A stretch of 64,000 nt of DNA. Origin: Stieleria magnilauensis (lineage in GTDB: Bacteria > Planctomycetota > Planctomycetia > Pirellulales > Pirellulaceae). The notes under the pieces were generated by a model. That model worked only from the letters and a program-made list of their open reading frames with translations, searched no databases and had not been told where the DNA came from. Below, one piece after another: positions 1,670 through 61,229 of this stretch. The stretch lies in assembly GCA_007753675.1 (NCBI GenBank), contig CP036432.1, positions 6,546,394 to 6,610,393 on the forward strand, written 5' to 3'. How positions within the stretch are numbered: position 1 is the first letter of the stretch; each line of letters begins with the position of its first letter. Position numbers and translations under genes: made by a program.

Positions 1670-1887
1670 GACAAGCTCTCGAAGAAACAGGCTCGGTTGG
1701 TGATTGCTGAGGATGTGCATGCGGACCGGCAGCCGCGCATGTCATCACCGTGAGGCGCTCTCGCAAACGATTTGGCCTCGTTGTCATTCGATTCGGCGAT
1801 CCATTGTCGCAGAAAGTTACGGTGCTCGCTGAGGGTTTGGCAGAATTCCGCCACGCCACCGGCATCCACTCTGCCGGCCCTCGGGAC

Positions 1888-2266
1888 GTCGATTGTATTA
1901 CTGAGCGACTCTTGGGCAAGCACCGCTCTGCGGTGCACACCGCAGAGCGGTGCCACAACAAAGCCCGGAGTCGCGAAGCGCACTCCGGGTGGGGCGCAGA
2001 GGACAGGGGAACCCCAGCGGGGTTCAACAAACGGCGCGGCACAATCCGGGGTGCGCAAACGGCGGCGTGAATCGGGCGAACCGTGTTGCTCTGTTCAACC
2101 CCGTTGGGGTTGGCGGCCTGTTGGCGACCGGAACTTGGGGTGCGCGGGCGCGACCCCAAGCTTTGATGTGGCACGCCGCTGGCGTGCGGGCCGCAGGAGC
2201 GGTTGCCGCTCGCGAGTCGTTCCCACAACGCGGTACGGCAAGTAATTCGTCAGTAATACAATCGAC
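1888..2266. repeat. Hairpin-chain repeat with terminal inverted repeats, copy 1
   Basis: The element is bounded by a perfect 17-bp inverted repeat, GTCGATTGTATTACTGA at 1888-1904 and its complement at 2250-2266. Between them lies a chain of separate palindromes: a 15-bp perfect stem at 1921-1952, CCCGGAGT/ACTCCGGG at 1964-1989, then GAACCCC/GGGGTTC, AACCCC/GGGGTT, CTTGGGGT/ACCCCAAG, GCACGCC/GGCGTGC and GAGCGG/CCGCTC. About 347 bp of it recurs in inverted orientation at 59132-59479. It contains no convincing gene; the reading frames through it are artefacts of the palindromes. The layout suggests a MITE-like non-autonomous element or a structured RNA cassette. It fills the gap between 2340 and 1669; the rest of that gap (1670-1887, 2267-2339) shows no gene. 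Confidence 0.85.
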
Positions 2267-2339
2267 ATCCTCCGGGCCTGAAGCCCCACGCCTATCTGGC
2301 AAGATCCGGTACCTAGAAAACGTTAGAGTCAGGCGTTTT

Positions 2340-5300
2340 TCATTGCCGGGGCCTCTTCCGCCCAGCTTCGACGCCAAAATGATGCAACACGTTCTTGAGC
2401 AGTTTGCTCATGTGTTCGTCGTGATACACGCCCCAGGCGGTTGCGATGGATCCGGTGTGGAACACGCGACCGCCTGTTGGACGTTCCCAGTAGATGATCT
2501 CGGCGATCGTCTGGTCGTCGCCGATCCGCGGCTTGTGTCCTTCGGCGTTGTAGTCAATCACACGGCGCTGGTCGTTACTGCTAGCGACGGTGACAATCCC
2601 TTGGGGTTCAACCAAGCCCTTGATGGCCGAGTCCGCAGTGGCACGCTGCAACGTTGAGAGGCGAACGTCGAACTCGTGGCCTACTGCGCCCATGTCCTTG
2701 CTGATGAATCCAAATGCATCTCCTTTTTTCAATCCCACCTGATGAGGCGTGTTGAAGAGAAAATGGTCAGGCTGGTCGACTTGATAGGGCTTGAACGCGC
2801 CGCCCCAACCGATGCAGGTGAGCCCGACGACTTTCCAGGCCGGGTAACCACAGAAACGCATCAGACTGCCGCGGCGGAAATCGTGACTGTGATAGAGTTC
2901 GCCGACTTGCGCGAGTTTGCGTCCGCCGATTCCTGTCCCGTACTTGCGTACCTCCATGAACTCGTCGGTTTCGTCGAAGCTAACCCGCCAGAACATCGTG
3001 TTACCGGAGAGGACGATCGCATCGCCGCCGGCTTTGAGATAATCGTCGAGTCCTTCATAGGCGCGCGCCGACCAGTATTCGCTGTGTCCATTGATGACAA
3101 CGGCCTGATAGCCATCGAGTACTTCGGGGTTGCGATCCAGGTCGCGGTCGGTGATGACGTCGTAATCGTATCCGTGCTGGTCCAACCAGAGATGCAGAAA
3201 ACGCTCGCCGCGCATCAGATGGCTGTAGGACTGATTGATGTAGGTCTTGTTCGGACCGGCCGCCGGCCACGGCAATTTCATCCCGATTTTGTATGTCGGT
3301 TGACCGTTGCGGTGATCGCGATAGCCGCTGTAGGTCGCAGCGTCTGGGTGCGTTGTTGGAAGGCCACCTGTGCCCATCATTGTCAGCTCCCGCCCGTGAT
3401 TGATGGGGAAAGGCGCCGAGTTGTATGCCAACCATGTGTTGGTCGACATCAGCACCGCCAACGGCGCCTTGGGCCGCGACTCCGGTCGGCGCACGATAAA
3501 CGTCGTGAAGTAACGTTTTGGTTTTCCATCGATTTCAAAATCAAAGCGGCCTGCGTAAACTCCGGATTTTGCGTCAGCGGGGATGCGGAACCGATGATTG
3601 ATTTTCCAACGCGCGTTGTAGAGTTCGTCTGATGCGAGCCGCAGTCCGTGGCCACGTTTCGGATCTTTCGTCGGATCGTAGCTGGTATCGTGCCGATCGA
3701 TGGCTGCGGCGTCAAAGCTGGGCCCGCCGATCATCCACGTGCCGCGGTTAATGATTCGCCCGTGCCGTCCACCGATACCGGCGTCGGCGACCCGAGTGCC
3801 GCGTTCTTCGGTGAAGGGCCAACAAGCGAGAACGGCGTTTCCTTTTGGGATGGTCAGCCCGCGATCGGCAACGCGTTTTTGCATCTGATCCAGAGTGATC
3901 GCTTGGTCATACAGGGACACCATCGCGATGTCGCCGTTGTAGAAATTCTCTGCCGCTCCCTTGCTGCCGTAAGCACCAATCCTGAGGGCCGTCTTCCCAG
4001 GACGAACGACTCCAGTGTATGGCCATTCGCCCGCCGCCTTTCCATCGATGAAAACACGCTTTACTTTTCCATCCCAGGTTGCCGCGACGTGGTGCCAACG
4101 CTGGGTCTCGATCAACCCTGGTGCGGTTTTGTGAAGAGACGCAGGATTGTGTTTGCCGCCACTGTCAGTCATGAACGCAATCTGGCCGTCGCTGAGGAAC
4201 AGCCCGATCCCGCATTTGTCCGGATAGTCATGTTGATTGATCAAGCCTTGCCAGCCGCCGAGTGCAAAGGGACGAATCCAGCACTCCAGGGTCAGCCCGG
4301 TCAGTGGTCGCTCACTGGGCAAGCTGTTGTCGACATGCACGTACGATCCCGGGTGGATCGGCTGCTGCGGCGGCCTATTGGCAGAGAACGTCGCCAGAAC
4401 GGGGTCGTTGTCGCGGTTTTCCGGATCAGGACCGAGCCGCACGACGCTCAATTGATAGGGAACGCTGCTGCTGACTCGAAACTTGATTTCGTTACCCGCG
4501 GCAATACTTTTCTGAGCATAGGCATGCAAGCCAGGCAACGTCATCTCGCGATGCGGTGGAATCTGTTGCTCTGCGAGTTCAGAACTTGGTGAAGCAGACT
4601 CATCTGGTGACGTTGACTCTTTCAGATAGGCCACAAGGTCCGCGATTTCCTGTGGTTTCAACTCGCGGTCCAGTCCCTCGGGCATGAAGGAGACATCGGA
4701 GTATCTGGCGTGTTCGATTTCCTTCATGCGTACCGGTTGCAAGACTCCCGCTGCCGATGCAAGAAAGATTTTGTCCATCGTTTCTTTGACAAGCAGTCCC
4801 GAGACAGCCCTGCCATCTTCCGTCAGGACGTTCACGATTTCGTGATAACGAGCAATCGATGCGTTGGGGTAAACAATGGCTTCCAACAAGTCGCGCTCAC
4901 TGCGAATCGCTCCGATCCTGGTCAAGTCAGGGCCTAATCGGACTCCCTGGTCGCCCTTGAGATGACAGATGATGCACTTTGATTTATCGCGATTGCCGAA
5001 CAGCTTCGCTCCTCGCTGCGCATCCGCTGTCGGCAGAAAGGCTGCAAGTTCATCAAGGCGTTGTTTTTGACGAGCCATCTTTTCAGGACTCGGCTCAGCG
5101 ACTTTCGCGAGTTGGATTTCGGGAAAGTCATCAGGGGTAACATTTCGCTGATCGATTTCCTGCATCCGCCGCACTTGTTCTGTGACCGGATGGTTGGCTG
5201 GAAGACCATCGCTGTCGCCGATTTCAAAAACCGCGTGGATGACAGCATGCTTCAAGAACGCATCCGCACTTTCTGAATAGGTTTTTAGCAGAGGTTTGAC

Positions 5301-7250
5301 CGCTGCACTGTTGCCGATTCTGCCGAGGGCCATCGCAGCGAGTCGGCGAAGTTGTCGATCATCATCGGAAAGCAACTCAATGAGTGGCGCCACAGCACCT
5401 CGATCCCGCCACAGTGCCACGCTATGAATCGCAGCCGTGCGAACGTCCGCACTCTGATCGCTGAGAAATTCGCGAACCGCCTGCCGCGCGGACTGACTCT
5501 GGATTCGATTTAGTGTCCAGACGGCTGGAATCTTGGCGCTGGCCTTGCGCAAATCATCGATCTTGTTCTCGTTGGCCAGAGCGTCAATGGCGCGTTTGAC
5601 GACCGCGGGCCGCTGGTCAGACAACCAACCGACTTGAGGCTGATTCCAATCGAGCTTCAGACCACGCGGATCGTACAAAACCGGTAGCGGACGAGGCGAC
5701 GAGTCCCGCGAAACCGGTAGTGGACGAGGCGACGAGTCCCGCGAAACCGGTAGTGGACGAGGCGACGAGTCCCGCGAAACCGGTAGTGGACGAGGCGACG
5801 AGTCCCGCGTAACCGGTAGTGGACGAGGCGACGAGTCCCGCGAAACCGGTAGTGGACCAGGCGACGAGTCCCCCAAAACCGGTAGTGGACGAGGCGACGA
5901 GTCCCGCGAAACCGGTAGCGGACCAGGCGACGAGTCCCCCAAAACCGGTAGTGGACCAGGCGACGAGTCCCGCGAAACCGGTAGCGGACCAGGCGACGAG
6001 TCCCGCGAAACCGGTAGTGGACGAGGCGACGAGTCCCGCGGTTCAGCACTCGTCGCCTCGCCCACGACGCCATTGAAATCACCCTCTTTTTCAAGCCGAT
6101 AGATCGCACCGAGAACGTCGGGCTTGGCGACTTTGGAAGTCGGGCAACAGATCATGTACCAACTGCCCGTATCAGCAACCAGCAGGCTGCCATCGGCGTC
6201 TTCGATCACGTCGGTTGGATGAAAGTCGGTATTGTCGCTTTCAATGAACGTCGTTGTTTCTGCCGAGTAAGACGAACCAGATCGAGTGAGCTGATGTCTG
6301 GAGATGCGGCGTGTGTTGAATTCGGTGCAGAGCAAGTCGCCACTCAAACCCGAGTTCGGATGACGCGCCATCATCATTCCCGAGGGAGCAGCGGGTCCGA
6401 GCTGTGTCAGAATCGGCAGCAAGTCTCCGGTATTGGGATGGGGAGTGAGCACGCGATTGTTTTCTTTGCCATACGTTCCCCCATAAACGGCGTGCAGGAT
6501 TCCATCGCGTCTGCCGGGTTGGGAAAGGTCAAAGAACGTGCCGCTGAGAAACCGTTCACCCGTTTCACTGAATGCCAAGCCAACGGGATTGTTCATTCCA
6601 CCGGTGATGACCATTTCCAGTTGGCTTCCGTCAGGCCGAGCACGATAAAGATGGGCTGCGCTGGACTGTATCGTTCGACCATTGCTCAGTTCATGCTTCT
6701 GCGGAGCAAAAGCTCCCTTGCACCAGTAGAAAAAACCGTCGGGTCCCAAGTAGGGACCGTGCATGTCGTTGCCACATCCTTCGATGCTGCCGCCATCGAA
6801 CCATTCGGTTCGCTCATCCGCCACCTGGTCGCCGTCGGTATCGCGAAGTTTCCAAATGTGGGGCGGTGCTCCCACGTAGACGCTGCCGCCGTGAACAAGA
6901 ATGCCTTCGGGGAAGGGCAATTTGTCGGCGAACACCGTCGATTCATCAAAGACTCCGTCGCCGTCGGTGTCGACCAAACGCAACACGCGATGTTGCGGGT
7001 CCTTGAGTTGAACCGGCGCTTTGTCGGTGTTGCCTGAACTGTCGGTGACGTACAGAACGCCGGACTCGTCAAAGCACATGTGAATGGGCCGCTTGACCAG
7101 TGGCGGCGCGGCGACACGTTTCAGTTCATATCCGTCCGGAATCGTGAACGTGTGAGGCGCCAGCGAAACGGTCTCTGCACTTTCTGTTTTCCCGTAGGCA
7201 CAACAGATGGCAAGGGCGACGAAAACGCGGAGGCAATGGTAACTTGGCAT
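2340..7250 (-). CDS. Multidomain exported protein: TIGR02604-type propeller, HEAT repeats, cytochrome c, LamG, DMFase-like C-terminus
   Basis: From the ATG at 7250 (chosen because a signal peptide starts there) the product has 1636 residues. Order of parts: a signal peptide; a dehydrogenase-like beta propeller (about 25-400, with DESGVLYVTD and VDTDGDGVFDEST blades); eleven copies of an 11-residue RDSSPRPLPVS-like repeat (about 405-525); HEAT-like repeats (about 545-690, VKPLLKTY, AVAPLIELL); a c-type heme domain with CIICH near residue 760 and the planctomycete TIGR02603 pattern; a LamG/concanavalin-like domain (about 955-1120, ECWIRPFALGGWQGLI); and a C-terminal region like the large subunit of N,N-dimethylformamidase (about 1255-1636, LMSTNTWLAYNSA, NGHSEYWSARAYEGLDDYL). 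It is probably a periplasmic or surface redox/hydrolase fusion. The substrate is not predictable from the sequence. Confidence 0.85.
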   Translation of the reverse strand: MPSYHCLRVFVALAICCAYGKTESAETVSLAPHTFTIPDGYELKRVAAPPLVKRPIHMCFDESGVLYVTDSSGNTDKAPVQLKDPQHRVLRLVDTDGDGVFDESTVFADKLPFPEGILVHGGSVYVGAPPHIWKLRDTDGDQVADERTEWFDGGSIEGCGNDMHGPYLGPDGFFYWCKGAFAPQKHELSNGRTIQSSAAHLYRARPDGSQLEMVITGGMNNPVGLAFSETGERFLSGTFFDLSQPGRRDGILHAVYGGTYGKENNRVLTPHPNTGDLLPILTQLGPAAPSGMMMARHPNSGLSGDLLCTEFNTRRISRHQLTRSGSSYSAETTTFIESDNTDFHPTDVIEDADGSLLVADTGSWYMICCPTSKVAKPDVLGAIYRLEKEGDFNGVVGEATSAEPRDSSPRPLPVSRDSSPGPLPVSRDSSPGPLPVLGDSSPGPLPVSRDSSPRPLPVLGDSSPGPLPVSRDSSPRPLPVTRDSSPRPLPVSRDSSPRPLPVSRDSSPRPLPVSRDSSPRPLPVLYDPRGLKLDWNQPQVGWLSDQRPAVVKRAIDALANENKIDDLRKASAKIPAVWTLNRIQSQSARQAVREFLSDQSADVRTAAIHSVALWRDRGAVAPLIELLSDDDRQLRRLAAMALGRIGNSAAVKPLLKTYSESADAFLKHAVIHAVFEIGDSDGLPANHPVTEQVRRMQEIDQRNVTPDDFPEIQLAKVAEPSPEKMARQKQRLDELAAFLPTADAQRGAKLFGNRDKSKCIICHLKGDQGVRLGPDLTRIGAIRSERDLLEAIVYPNASIARYHEIVNVLTEDGRAVSGLLVKETMDKIFLASAAGVLQPVRMKEIEHARYSDVSFMPEGLDRELKPQEIADLVAYLKESTSPDESASPSSELAEQQIPPHREMTLPGLHAYAQKSIAAGNEIKFRVSSSVPYQLSVVRLGPDPENRDNDPVLATFSANRPPQQPIHPGSYVHVDNSLPSERPLTGLTLECWIRPFALGGWQGLINQHDYPDKCGIGLFLSDGQIAFMTDSGGKHNPASLHKTAPGLIETQRWHHVAATWDGKVKRVFIDGKAAGEWPYTGVVRPGKTALRIGAYGSKGAAENFYNGDIAMVSLYDQAITLDQMQKRVADRGLTIPKGNAVLACWPFTEERGTRVADAGIGGRHGRIINRGTWMIGGPSFDAAAIDRHDTSYDPTKDPKRGHGLRLASDELYNARWKINHRFRIPADAKSGVYAGRFDFEIDGKPKRYFTTFIVRRPESRPKAPLAVLMSTNTWLAYNSAPFPINHGRELTMMGTGGLPTTHPDAATYSGYRDHRNGQPTYKIGMKLPWPAAGPNKTYINQSYSHLMRGERFLHLWLDQHGYDYDVITDRDLDRNPEVLDGYQAVVINGHSEYWSARAYEGLDDYLKAGGDAIVLSGNTMFWRVSFDETDEFMEVRKYGTGIGGRKLAQVGELYHSHDFRRGSLMRFCGYPAWKVVGLTCIGWGGAFKPYQVDQPDHFLFNTPHQVGLKKGDAFGFISKDMGAVGHEFDVRLSTLQRATADSAIKGLVEPQGIVTVASSNDQRRVIDYNAEGHKPRIGDDQTIAEIIYWERPTGGRVFHTGSIATAWGVYHDEHMSKLLKNVLHHFGVEAGRKRPRQ
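5678..6040. repeat. In-frame 33-bp minisatellite, 11 copies
   Basis: Eleven head-to-tail 33-bp units lie inside the gene at 2340-7250. Each carries AACCGGTAG followed by GACGAGGCGACGAGTCC. On the coding strand each unit gives 11 residues of the form RDSSPRPLPVS, with R/G and S/L/T swaps. Because the period is a multiple of three, every frame on both strands stays open through the array. The array ends against an inverted half unit: CGAGGCGACGAGT at 6022-6034 pairs perfectly with 6048-6060. Copies are nearly identical, so the number is likely to vary between strains. Confidence 0.95.
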
Positions 7251-7685
7251 GAGACGCAGATTGGATTGATTACTGTCGCGGCTTTCGGTGGGAGCTTGCC
7301 CCAATCCCCCATGCTAACACATGAGGCCATATGCCTTCGCAGTTTCGCTGCTGGAAAGCGACGACAGTCTGACGACGTGAAGAAGCACCTGAGAACCAAG
7401 TCCAACTGCTTGCCTGCGGGATTCCTTTAGGCATGGCACCACTGGAGCCATGAAATCTGGATCTAAAGCGGCAGATCCGGAAGAAAAGTTGGCAAGAAAC
7501 TCTTCGAATGGCGTCCGACTTAGAGCAAAATGGCACATAGGGGTCAGAGGCAGCCGCTGGTTTCAACGCGGATGGTCGGTTTTGGATCTTTACGTCTGTG
7601 GATCGATTTCCGTGTCATTTCGTGGCAGGGGCTGAATCGACATCAACTCAAGACGACCGAATCGTCAGACAACCGCGAGTTTCCC
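7251..7685. other. Divergent intergenic region, no gene seen
   Basis: These 435 bp separate the divergent starts at 7250 (minus) and 7686 (plus) and should hold both promoters. I see no recognisable gene. A short plus-strand frame from 7450 has a Shine-Dalgarno-like GGAG only two bases before its ATG and resembles nothing I know. No sigma-54-like -24/-12 motif was found here. Confidence 0.5.
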
Positions 7686-59131: not shown

Positions 59132-59479
59132 ACCGCGTTGTGGGAACGACTCGCGAGCGGCAACCGCTCCTGCGGCCCGCACGCCAGCGGCGTGCCACAT
59201 CAAAGCTTGGGGTCGCGCCCGCGCACCCCAAGTTCCGGTCGCCAACAGGCCGCCAACCCCAACGGGGTTGAACAGAGCAACACGGTTCGCCCGATTCACG
59301 CCGCCGTTTGCGCACCCCGGATTGTGCCGCGCCGTTTGTTGAACCCCGCTGGGGTTCCCCTGTCCTTTGCGCCCCCACCCGGAGTGCGCTTCGCGACTCC
59401 GGGCTTTGTTGTGGCACCGCTCTGCTGTGTGCACCGCAGAGCGGTGCTTGCCCAAAAGCCGCTCAGTAATACAATTGAC
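59132..59479. repeat. Hairpin-chain repeat, copy 2 (inverted relative to copy 1)
   Basis: These 348 bp are the near-identical reverse complement of 1888-2234, with the same chain of palindromes. The right terminal repeat is present (TCAGTAATACAATTGAC at 59463-59479, one base different), and similarity continues about ten bases outside it. The left terminal repeat is absent: similarity stops at about 59132. One palindrome carries a C-to-A change that breaks its symmetry. The sequence to 59687 holds no gene, only smaller inverted repeats such as GGCCTTTCAGGCC. Confidence 0.88.
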
Positions 59480-59697
59480 GTCCAGCGGGCCGACACAATT
59501 CCCCAGCTTTTAGCGGTACCCGCAGCTCATGAGACCGATTGTGCCGGCCTTTCAGGCCTCCGTGATCGAGGTCTTTCCATTCCGGTGGCTAACCGACCTG
59601 TTGATTTAAGCCGATCGTACGTGGGATTAGTCGCGAGCGCGCAAGCGTTCGGGCATTCATCATGTCAGTTACTCACCGGCACCCGCAGGCTCGCGCC

Positions 59698-61229
59698 CAA
59701 TGCCACCTACTTTGTGGTCATTCGGGTGGTATATCATCGGGCTGCTGTTTTTTTCTTCGAAGTGACTTCTGGAATTTCGTTGTCTTTTGGCGCCGCGGGT
59801 GGGCTATGCGTGGGTAGCTGCGAGGCAATTTTCGATTGGGAAGTTTGCGGCCCGCTGCGCTCACCAAAGCGCCGTGATAAGCCAGCCTCCATTCCTCCAG
59901 GGTCGTAAGCTTTTCACGTAGCAGATGATGCTTGAACGTCGTCCAAACTCCCGTGAAGCTGAGCTCGCGAGGGTCAACTCGAATCAATTTCGCTGCTTGT
60001 TTGCGTAGCTGAGCGACAAGATTATAAGCGATGATCGATCCCATTAGCTCCTTCATCACCGTGTCGACACTCTTGGCGCGAATGTTTTCTGTGTCCATCG
60101 TCACTTTGACATCGCGGATATCGAACTCCACATCGTAGCGACGAACGTACAGGGCAGCGGCCGAGTGAGCGTCCGTCTCAAGGCTCGTCACGATCTCCAG
60201 CGTGTCTCCATTTTCAAGTTCAATTTGGTGGAGAAAGACTTCGATAGACGTGTCTTTACTAAGATCGAGATTGGTTCGGCGGTCCTTCGGTGTCGGCCGC
60301 CAAATCAAGTGAAACGTCTTGTACCCGTCCCCTTGGTCGACCAACGTAGCCGACTTGCGGTACGACCTGAATCGCTGTTTGGTCAGCCGCAGCACGAAGT
60401 CTTGATGATGTAATTGGCAGTGGTGGGCGACATTAAAAATCCCAAAACCGCTATCAGCCAGAACGATCGAGCGTTTCGGGAGTCGTTCAATAATCGGCTT
60501 GGCTTGCTCAAGTTCACTTTTGTTGTCCGCTCCGTACATCGGATCGACTTGCGGCAACAACGCGCACCCGGTCTGCATTTCATTTGCGACCAGCAATCTC
60601 GCAATAGGCCAAACCGTCTCTCCGTGTTGGTTGGACGCCGGCGGGAACGCTTTCTGAAGTGCTTCGGTCGGAGGAAGCGTGATCGTCGTCCCATCGATAA
60701 TGAATACACGTCGATCGAGAAAGGCTTTGGGAGCGCGGGAAGCAAGGTGATCGCAGATTCGATGGGAAAACTCTTCCACGACAGCGAGCGGAATCCTTTT
60801 TCTGGCGGCGTTGTAGGCCGAATTGTTTTCGGAAAGGCGATTCTCTTGAACCCTTCGATTGTCAGGCAAAATATCCGTATGATTTTTGAGCAAATCTGCG
60901 ACGGCATCGGTTAGTGAGATGCCTCCTTCGAGCCGTTGTAAAACGAGTAGCCAGAGGGTCGGGGCCTGCGTATAGACCATCCGCGCGTTGGCACAATCGT
61001 GATCTTCAAAGACCCGTTGTAGTTTGGGTAATTCAAGAAGCTCAGCCAGCAACGCTTTGGCTTTGCCAAAGCGAGACTCTTCATCGGCACCGAGTGTCGT
61101 CGGGTCGACCATGGCGATTCCCAGTCAGAAAGGCAGTAAGTGTAAACTTACCTGCCAGGCGCAAAAATCGTGCCAAAACCGGGTTTTTGGGACCGCGCCA
61201 CCCGATAGGGTCCAGAATAGGTGGCATTG
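59698..61229 (-). mobile_element. IS4-family insertion sequence, complete
   Basis: The element of about 1532 bp has imperfect terminal inverted repeats that both start CAATGCCACCTA and share CGGGTGG about 25 bases in. The 10-bp sequence GGCTCGCGCC is found at both junctions (59688-59697 and 61230-61239), consistent with target duplication. It carries one transposase gene. It landed in a dispersed motif, since joining the flanks gives CTCGCGCC-AAACGGCTGAT, close to 35054-35070. Exact ends could shift by one or two bases. Confidence 0.92.
59718..61112 (-). CDS. IS4-family transposase (DDE type)
   Basis: The 464-residue protein has all three catalytic blocks of the IS4 family: first Asp in RRVFIIDGTTITLPPTEALQ, second Asp in RSIVLADSGFGIFNVAHHC, and the full YREK signature in YVRRYDVEFDIRDVK (Y-2-R-3-E-6-K). 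The C-terminal part is basic (RRQKTTKFQKSLRRKKQQ). The frame is intact, so the element is potentially active. Confidence 0.96.
   Translation of the reverse strand: MVDPTTLGADEESRFGKAKALLAELLELPKLQRVFEDHDCANARMVYTQAPTLWLLVLQRLEGGISLTDAVADLLKNHTDILPDNRRVQENRLSENNSAYNAARKRIPLAVVEEFSHRICDHLASRAPKAFLDRRVFIIDGTTITLPPTEALQKAFPPASNQHGETVWPIARLLVANEMQTGCALLPQVDPMYGADNKSELEQAKPIIERLPKRSIVLADSGFGIFNVAHHCQLHHQDFVLRLTKQRFRSYRKSATLVDQGDGYKTFHLIWRPTPKDRRTNLDLSKDTSIEVFLHQIELENGDTLEIVTSLETDAHSAAALYVRRYDVEFDIRDVKVTMDTENIRAKSVDTVMKELMGSIIAYNLVAQLRKQAAKLIRVDPRELSFTGVWTTFKHHLLREKLTTLEEWRLAYHGALVSAAGRKLPNRKLPRSYPRIAHPRRQKTTKFQKSLRRKKQQPDDIPPE

Follow-up and report, generated by a model that had tools for sequence, protein, structure and literature searches.

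IS1397 and other REP-targeting insertion sequences (IS) insert in REP palindromes, and are full IS with a transposase of their own. MITEs are likewise already known, as are palindrome-seeking IS, REPINs and REP dimers that lie inside palindromes, as far as the available parts of the sources describe them (PMC10969869, PMC5678879, PMC3733652, PMC6006769). The element analysed here resembles prokaryotic MITEs, as described in the accessible portion of PMC10969869, in that it is short, has terminal inverted repeats (TIRs), is present in many copies and carries no transposase of its own. It is unlike the MITEs of that portion in that a 1-bp duplication is found in hairpin loops, the interiors are modular and made of hairpins (this one being Y1-derived), and the cognate IS was not found.

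IS1272, a member of the IS1182 family, attacks inverted repeats or stem-loops without sequence homology and replaces them, and its authors' model contains a hypothetical path in which the loop only is duplicated (PMC5678879, excerpts). The present element likewise has an inverted-repeat target of no fixed sequence. However, IS1272 removes the target stem-loop in those excerpts, whereas here both arms stay (in 46 of 99 end pairs, at an offset of 2|2) and one loop base is doubled, which places the element nearer to the hypothetical loop-duplication pathway of the IS1272 model (PMC5678879). The same excerpts raised the question of whether DNA shape can guide a DDE transposase to its target.

The REP, REPIN and REPtron units of Y1 transposases are similar to the interior of the element, in that a pair of hairpin blocks flanks the Y1 gene and is also found alone or in tandem (PMC3733652, PMC6006769, both in part). 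In contrast to the units in those parts, here there are three hairpins per block (about 100 bp), and the unit lies inside a TIR element. The REP dimers in palindromes (T. roseum GTAG-23 and A. variabilis GTAG-15) are comparable, as small repeats within small host palindromes, for example CCGSSCC(n3,4)GGSSCGG; however, these are tagged REPs, and the available text of PMC3733652 does not describe 22-bp terminal repeats or a 1-bp duplication for them. Consistent with the preliminary description of the locus, no planctomycete element with this layout was found in the literature searched. Similarly, that literature, which was largely without subscription papers, yielded no description of a loop-centre insertion with a 1-base duplication (27 arm types) and a Y1-derived passenger.

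The 389-bp element and its hairpin chain

The window, which is the whole 64,000-nucleotide stretch of the Stieleria magnilauensis genome that was analysed, probably contains two copies of a MITE-like, non-autonomous transposon of 389 bp, one of them complete and the other truncated at one end; the transposon belongs to a planctomycete (mainly Pirellulaceae) superfamily (Table 1). The perfect 17-bp inverted repeats GTCGATTGTATTACTGA, by which the preliminary description had bounded the element, were confirmed at 1888-1904 and 2250-2266. The inverted ends are real, but the boundary lies five bases further out on each side, as GGGAC/GTCCC (or GGGAT/ATCCC) is constant beside the repeat where the flanks vary. 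The corrected bounds are 1883-2271, with 22-bp inverted ends GGGAYGTCGATTNNATTACTGA.

The genome is a single contig of 10.77 Mb. Within it, 12 copies, including that of the window, span at least 377 of the 379 query bases with 96-100% identity, a count that is a lower bound because 40 of the 70 first-look candidates were scored. Both of the two copies 57 kb apart that were originally noted do exist, but they understate this number. The further copies are partial, end-truncated or internally deleted, and include the 347-base copy in the window; this was correctly reported as inverted with a single terminal repeat, since it lies on the minus strand and retains a variant end GTCAATTG, the other being gone. 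The 17-bp end, allowing up to 2 mismatches, occurs 38 times in the window genome, compared with 0 for the reversed control. The boundaries are constant among the copies, the terminal inverted repeats thus being fixed in many copies, and the target site duplication is of 1 bp only. No transposase gene is present within the 389 bp, and the listed long open reading frames (ORFs) cross the element into its flanks. The earlier reading as a non-autonomous transposable element agrees with the fixed ends, the 12 near-full copies and the sister families that share the ends. The copies also suggest mobility.

Table 1. Coordinates of the element, its parts and its surroundings in the window
Feature	Position	Strand	Remark
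Complete element, TIR to TIR	1883..2271	+	389 bp
Left 22-bp terminal inverted repeat	1883..1904	+	GGGACGTCGATTGTATTACTGA
Right terminal inverted repeat	2250..2271	-	reverse complement AGGATGTCGATTGTATTACTGA; 2 mismatches to left
Second copy	59132..59484	-	one terminal repeat (59463-59484); opposite end lost
Host hairpin, left arm and half loop	1876..1882	+	GGCCC (1876-1880) and TC (1881-1882)
Host hairpin, half loop and right arm	2272..2278	+	CC (2272-2273; C duplicated) and GGGCC (2274-2278)
Interior core	1936..2186	+	gene-less halfL and halfR unit of an IS200-like (Y1) element
halfL block	1936..2038	+	hairpins 1-3
halfR block	2092..2186	+	hairpins 4-6
Hairpin 0/1	1920..1953	+	GCACCGC...GCGGTGC; one long or two small stems; right half is helix 1 of the pair count
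Hairpin 2	1964..1989	+	CCCGGAGT...ACTCCGGG
Hairpin 3	2009..2025	+	GAACCCC AGC GGGGTTC
Hairpin 4	2096..2112	+	CAACCCC GTT GGGGTTG
Hairpin 5	2134..2160	+	CTTGGGGT...ACCCCAAG
Hairpin 6	2172..2186	+	CACGCC GCT GGCGTG
Hairpin 7	2197..2211	+	GAGCGG TTG CCGCTC; read from sequence; outside the pair count

The chain of hairpins was found to be real and its order conserved. The original number of seven is less certain, and is seven or eight according to whether 1920-1953 is read as a single long stem or as two small ones. The DNA fold had an energy of -127.2 kcal/mol, compared with -87.7 (sd 4.6) for shuffled sequences (z -8.5), and 0 of 100 shuffles were as good. Six stems, comprising 48 pairs, were aligned across 33 of 46 homologous cores; the 13 excluded were 12 near-identical copies of the window genome and a self match on the reverse strand. 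Of the 1580 cells, 99.2% were paired. Both-sided changes were present in 5 of the 48 pairs (10 cells), which was more than in any of 500 shuffles (mean 0.9) and more than in the slid controls (2 or fewer). There was no excess of further pair types among the 33 cores (9, compared with 8.8 in the shuffles, 314 of 500 being as high). The covariation is thus present but thin, as most of the stem pairs are invariant. The conservation of the stems supports the presence of real hairpins, and from it DNA and RNA are indistinguishable.

The pairing of the six stems and the compensatory changes would also be expected of a functional structured RNA or a regulatory DNA under selection, a structured RNA or DNA function having initially been proposed. 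This appears very unlikely, as no match above the Rfam gathering score was obtained for three loci (L001, L015 and L069), the same hairpins flank a transposase gene in five genomes, and the interiors are common to several element families and partly missing from deleted copies. The presence of the stems is accounted for by an IS200-like transposase element, of which they are the end hairpins.

Two features were noted beside the copies in the window. A neighbouring ORF of 1654 amino acids (2340-7304) includes a series of in-frame repeats that are nearly identical (RDSSPRPLPVS and variants) and perhaps derive from an inserted repeat. A transposase-like ORF of 464 amino acids (59718-61112) directly adjoins the truncated copy, and overlaps a DDE_Tnp_1 match (G000:C1:6606411-6607109) from a group with many copies in the genome.

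Shared ends and insertion into the loops of host hairpins

Sister elements have the same ends and other interiors. The end pattern GGGAYGTCRATTNNATTNCTGA was present in 64 stretches of the named genome collection, of which 53 were planctomycete, including 28 from Aporhodopirellula aestuarii. The remaining 11 were from other phyla, where the best partner end within 4 kb had 5 or more mismatches. All 11 chosen genomes have pattern matches at up to 3 mismatches. At this threshold, A. aestuarii (G060, the genome of L210) has 150 + 163 = 313 matches, compared with 1 + 2 = 3 for the reversed pattern, and the window genome has 67 + 66, compared with 4 + 7, in a count that includes ends of an IS1182 element. 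Paired ends, searched between 45 and 440 bp, enclose elements of 46 to 431 bp, with 123 bp being the commonest length; the interiors are unrelated to each other, and several consist of hairpins.

The interior of the window element is also found, with 88-89% identity, inside a second set of elements with ends like GGGATGTGAAAAGTATTGCTGA. Furthermore, a hybrid element (L064 3071-3457, L014) combines an end of the GTGAAAAG family with one of the GTCGATTG family, and has this same interior between them. Ends and interiors therefore recombine. Within the genus, the 16-bp end was identified at up to 1 mismatch in 8 of 14 genomes, and the 379-bp query matched 10 of 60 genomes, mostly via the interior; both counts include the window genome itself.

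About half of the elements are inserted in the loop of a host palindrome, with the central base duplicated. The analysis included 99 end pairs, from loci that were picked by their ends or interior and not by their flanks, with four loci entered under two alternative pairings. Inverted flanks that match perfectly over 5 bp or more were observed in 61 of the 99 pairs, compared with 8.1% in a swapped-flank control. With the offset fixed at 2|2, perfect inverted flanks of at least 4 bp were observed in 46 pairs (control 4.1%). In 40 of these 46 palindromic sites the second base on the left is the same as the first base on the right, a duplication of the central loop base that is expected in approximately 25%. 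The sites at this offset have 27 distinct arms, and the first member of each shows the duplication in 24 of 27.

The alignment of boundaries for target duplications, as suggested in the preliminary description, showed a 1-base direct repeat in 69 of the 99 end pairs, compared with 25% in the control. Duplications of 2 bp (10/99; control 7.8%) and 3 bp (3/99; control 0.8%) were also counted, and no junction match of 4 bp or more was present among the 99 pairs when lengths of 2-11 bp were tested. As 38 of the 99 pairs lack 5-bp arms, the hairpin rule is a preference, or some of the sites have decayed.

Empty hairpins with the same arms, which are paralogous to the occupied sites, were searched for with loops of up to 8 nt. 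The loop was of 3 nt in 11 of 15 empty ATCCC/GGGAT hairpins, in 13 of 14 with CGCTGC/GCAGCG arms, and in the one empty GGTCTC/GAGACC hairpin. The latter has the sequence GGTCTC-TCC-GAGACC, as opposed to GGTCTC-TC[element]CC-GAGACC when occupied; similarly, CGCTGC-GAA-GCAGCG is occupied as CGCTGC-GA[element]AA-GCAGCG in L011. Since the empty hairpins mostly have 3-nt loops, a loop XYZ becomes XY[element]YZ. The host hairpin in the window is GGCCC-TCC-GGGCC; at another locus of the same genome (L301), hairpins of this type lie around a Y1 transposase gene. A search for an orthologous empty site of the window copy yielded none, its two flanks being at unlinked places in G006 and G012.

The 27 arm types suggest that the dyad structure is recognised. 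We tentatively propose, with somewhat less than even confidence, that the transposition system recognises the shape of a hairpin or cruciform whatever the sequence of its arms, and inserts in the loop with a 1-base stagger. The element would then point to an enzyme that may pick its target by shape and not by sequence. As the natural data set is large (99 end pairs and 27 arm types) and the signature sharp, the question of shape targeting raised by IS1272 is directly testable here. If shape targeting is true, hairpin elements of several unrelated transposase lineages would stack inside each other and swap interiors, and this stacking would build the large palindrome clusters of planctomycete genomes. 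The results also suggest an origin for unusually long hairpin chains, in which a mobile hairpin element enters the loop of another, carrying the hairpins of a third.

A Y1-derived interior

The interior of the element consists of the two hairpin blocks that form the paired ends of an IS200-like Y1 transposase element, with the gene absent. Outside these ends, the 1936-2186 sequence was found in tandem or beside a protein of 150 residues, which was identified as Y1_Tnp by Pfam (E 1e-24) and as IS200/IS605 by NCBIfam. The same Y1 gene (150 residues, 89-99% identical) lies between halfL and halfR in the window genome (G000) and in four others (G001, G003, G006 and G013), and compact halfL-halfR units adjoin the gene in these five genomes. 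The genus mates of the window genome include Stieleria sedimenti (G003), Rhodopirellula sp. SM50 (G006) and Rhodopirellula sp. JC639 (G013). As the gene lies between the two blocks, the interior is a gene-less derivative of the Y1 element, comparable to a REPIN; this comparison applies to the interior only, whose two hairpin blocks were also found on either side of a Y1 gene in five genomes. The transposase link of the interior was missed by the preliminary description, as were the hairpin-loop target and the five extra bases at each end.

For a second Y1 gene (L303), the flanking hairpins resemble, by eye, the interior of TIR elements of 293-431 bp in G001, G002 and G013. A tandem halfL-halfR series beside the Y1 transposase gene was also noted in G001 and G013 (L143 1848-3792 and L144 1914-3978), and is possible evidence of amplification of the unit.

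The Y1 unit would have entered a TIR element earlier, and would now be a passenger with no shown function in the element. Alternatively, a Y1 transposase (IS200-like, RAYT/TIRYT) may move the whole element as single-stranded DNA, in which case the TIRs would be the foot of a giant hairpin, and the insertion in loops would reflect single-stranded targets. The Y1-derived interior fits this alternative, as does the suitability of single-stranded or cruciform DNA for loop insertion, and the available parts of PMC3733652 record both Y1 genes flanked by TIRs (TIRYT) and REP dimers within palindromes. However, none of the six Y1 loci of the window genome lies between the same terminal repeats (end pairs at up to 4 mismatches within about 1.5 kb on each side), and the lone single end match near the Y1 loci belongs to an IS1182 copy. 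This Y1 block is missing from the interiors of sister elements that share the ends, for example those of 73-123 bp. IS200-type insertion is also not known to produce a target duplication. Mobilisation of the whole element by a Y1 or TIRYT enzyme is improbable, and was rejected as a candidate because no Y1 locus of the window genome is enclosed by such ends.

Candidate mobilisers

We propose that the copies are moved in trans by a DDE transposase, which would bind the 22-bp ends and attack a hairpin or cruciform at its apex, with a stagger of 1 nt. The enzyme is most likely of the IS1182 family, with a chance only slightly below even; the cognate full-length element was not found.

The window genome contains 39 protein matches to the IS1182-family transposase (NF033551, E 6e-98), of which 36 are 99-100% identical and three are diverged. 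The abundant IS has a length of 1991 bp between GGCCTGTCGGTTTAGT and GGCCTGTCGATTTAGTTCCTG. One of its ends resembles those of the element, as the right end, GGCCTGTCGATTTAGTTCCTG, has 3 mismatches to the superfamily pattern and is in register from the first base; the opposite end has 7 mismatches. For a second IS1182 element of the genome, the mismatches number 8 and 8, which is no better than background, so that neither of the two window-genome elements scored matches at both ends. The ends of 10 other IS groups (DDE_Tnp_1) have 8-11 mismatches, even with a 10-base slide. The insertion in palindromes is as expected of an IS1182 derivative. In addition, GT(T/C)GATTTA is found near an end in the IS1182-type genes of Rhodopirellula solitaria, Rubripirellula obstinata and A. 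aestuarii; the R. solitaria gene has flanking inverted repeats with 17 of 18 bases matching and no direct duplication.

The abundant IS1182 element was rejected as the direct mobiliser. A 6-bp duplication, GCNNGC, is present in 17 of the 26 copies compared, the other nine having 2 matching bases only, whereas the small elements have 1 bp. Relatives of the abundant element, by protein search (E 1e-15), are absent from 7 of the 11 genomes searched and reach no more than 21-41% identity in three others, yet genomes without close relatives nevertheless carry the small elements. With a more sensitive search by domain, IS1182-type genes were also recovered in G060 and G061. Given the misfit in duplication length and distribution, the abundant element was retained only as a lead to the family.

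The difference from the duplication of the abundant IS1182 element would fit a DDE transposase of another family, lost or unsampled, as the mover of the superfamily, and the regions examined contained no autonomous element with exactly these ends. At 124 loci, the TIR pairs with a spacing of 450-4500 bp consisted of the IS110 case described below, small elements that overlap, and a further 10 pairs enclosing long ORFs. No transposase was present among the 14 ORFs from these 10 pairs that were run on Pfam, of which 13 belonged to other families and one had no match. Similarly, no TIR pair at up to 4 mismatches was found at nine of the 12 DDE_Tnp_1 loci of G060 and G064; the remaining three are IS1182 loci, which were examined separately. 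However, the in-register end with 3 mismatches and the reported stem-loop preference favour IS1182, and the ends of the 10 other IS groups in the genome are not similar. We consider a non-IS1182 enzyme rather unlikely, and an IS1182-type enzyme remains the preferred candidate.

An IS110-family (RNA-guided) transposase was also considered, as TIR elements enclosing an IS110 gene were found in G001 (1.85 kb) and in the window genome (2.3 kb twice and 3.9 kb once), the two genomes having different IS110 elements. The 1.85-kb element appeared autonomous and was rejected, since its IS has its own left boundary inside the TIR element; 6 of 10 IS copies were alignable at the left, and their common boundary falls there. 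Two copies in the window genome agree at 1999 of 1999 bases of the IS110 part, whereas the surrounding TIR-element parts are 92-93% identical in these, and 89-94% across all three copies. IS110 therefore entered older elements at one preferred site. Composite transposition of the 2.3-kb TIR element with IS110 (99.3% identical from TIR to TIR) was rejected in favour of such separate entries at one site. For the copies examined, these alignments refute IS110 as the mobiliser, and this explanation is barely credible.

The IS110-family element of 2 kb (with a gene of 521 amino acids) was present at the same spot in three short TIR-element copies (L307, L308 and L377), leaving 88 bp and about 226 bp of the TIR element on its two sides. 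An RNA-guided transposase thus has a naturally occurring target site here. In L377, the 3.9-kb pair, the IS110 is in fragments interrupted by an rve integrase ORF.

The abundant IS1182 element was observed in GCNNGC within REP-like repeats (L309, L310 and L315-L351), and the flanks of the copy in L342 look like the two arms of a single palindrome of which the middle has been replaced. In L440 and L441, the ends of another IS group coincide with CCGGAGGT...GCGCAGCG host repeats, and that group may thus also use REP-like targets.
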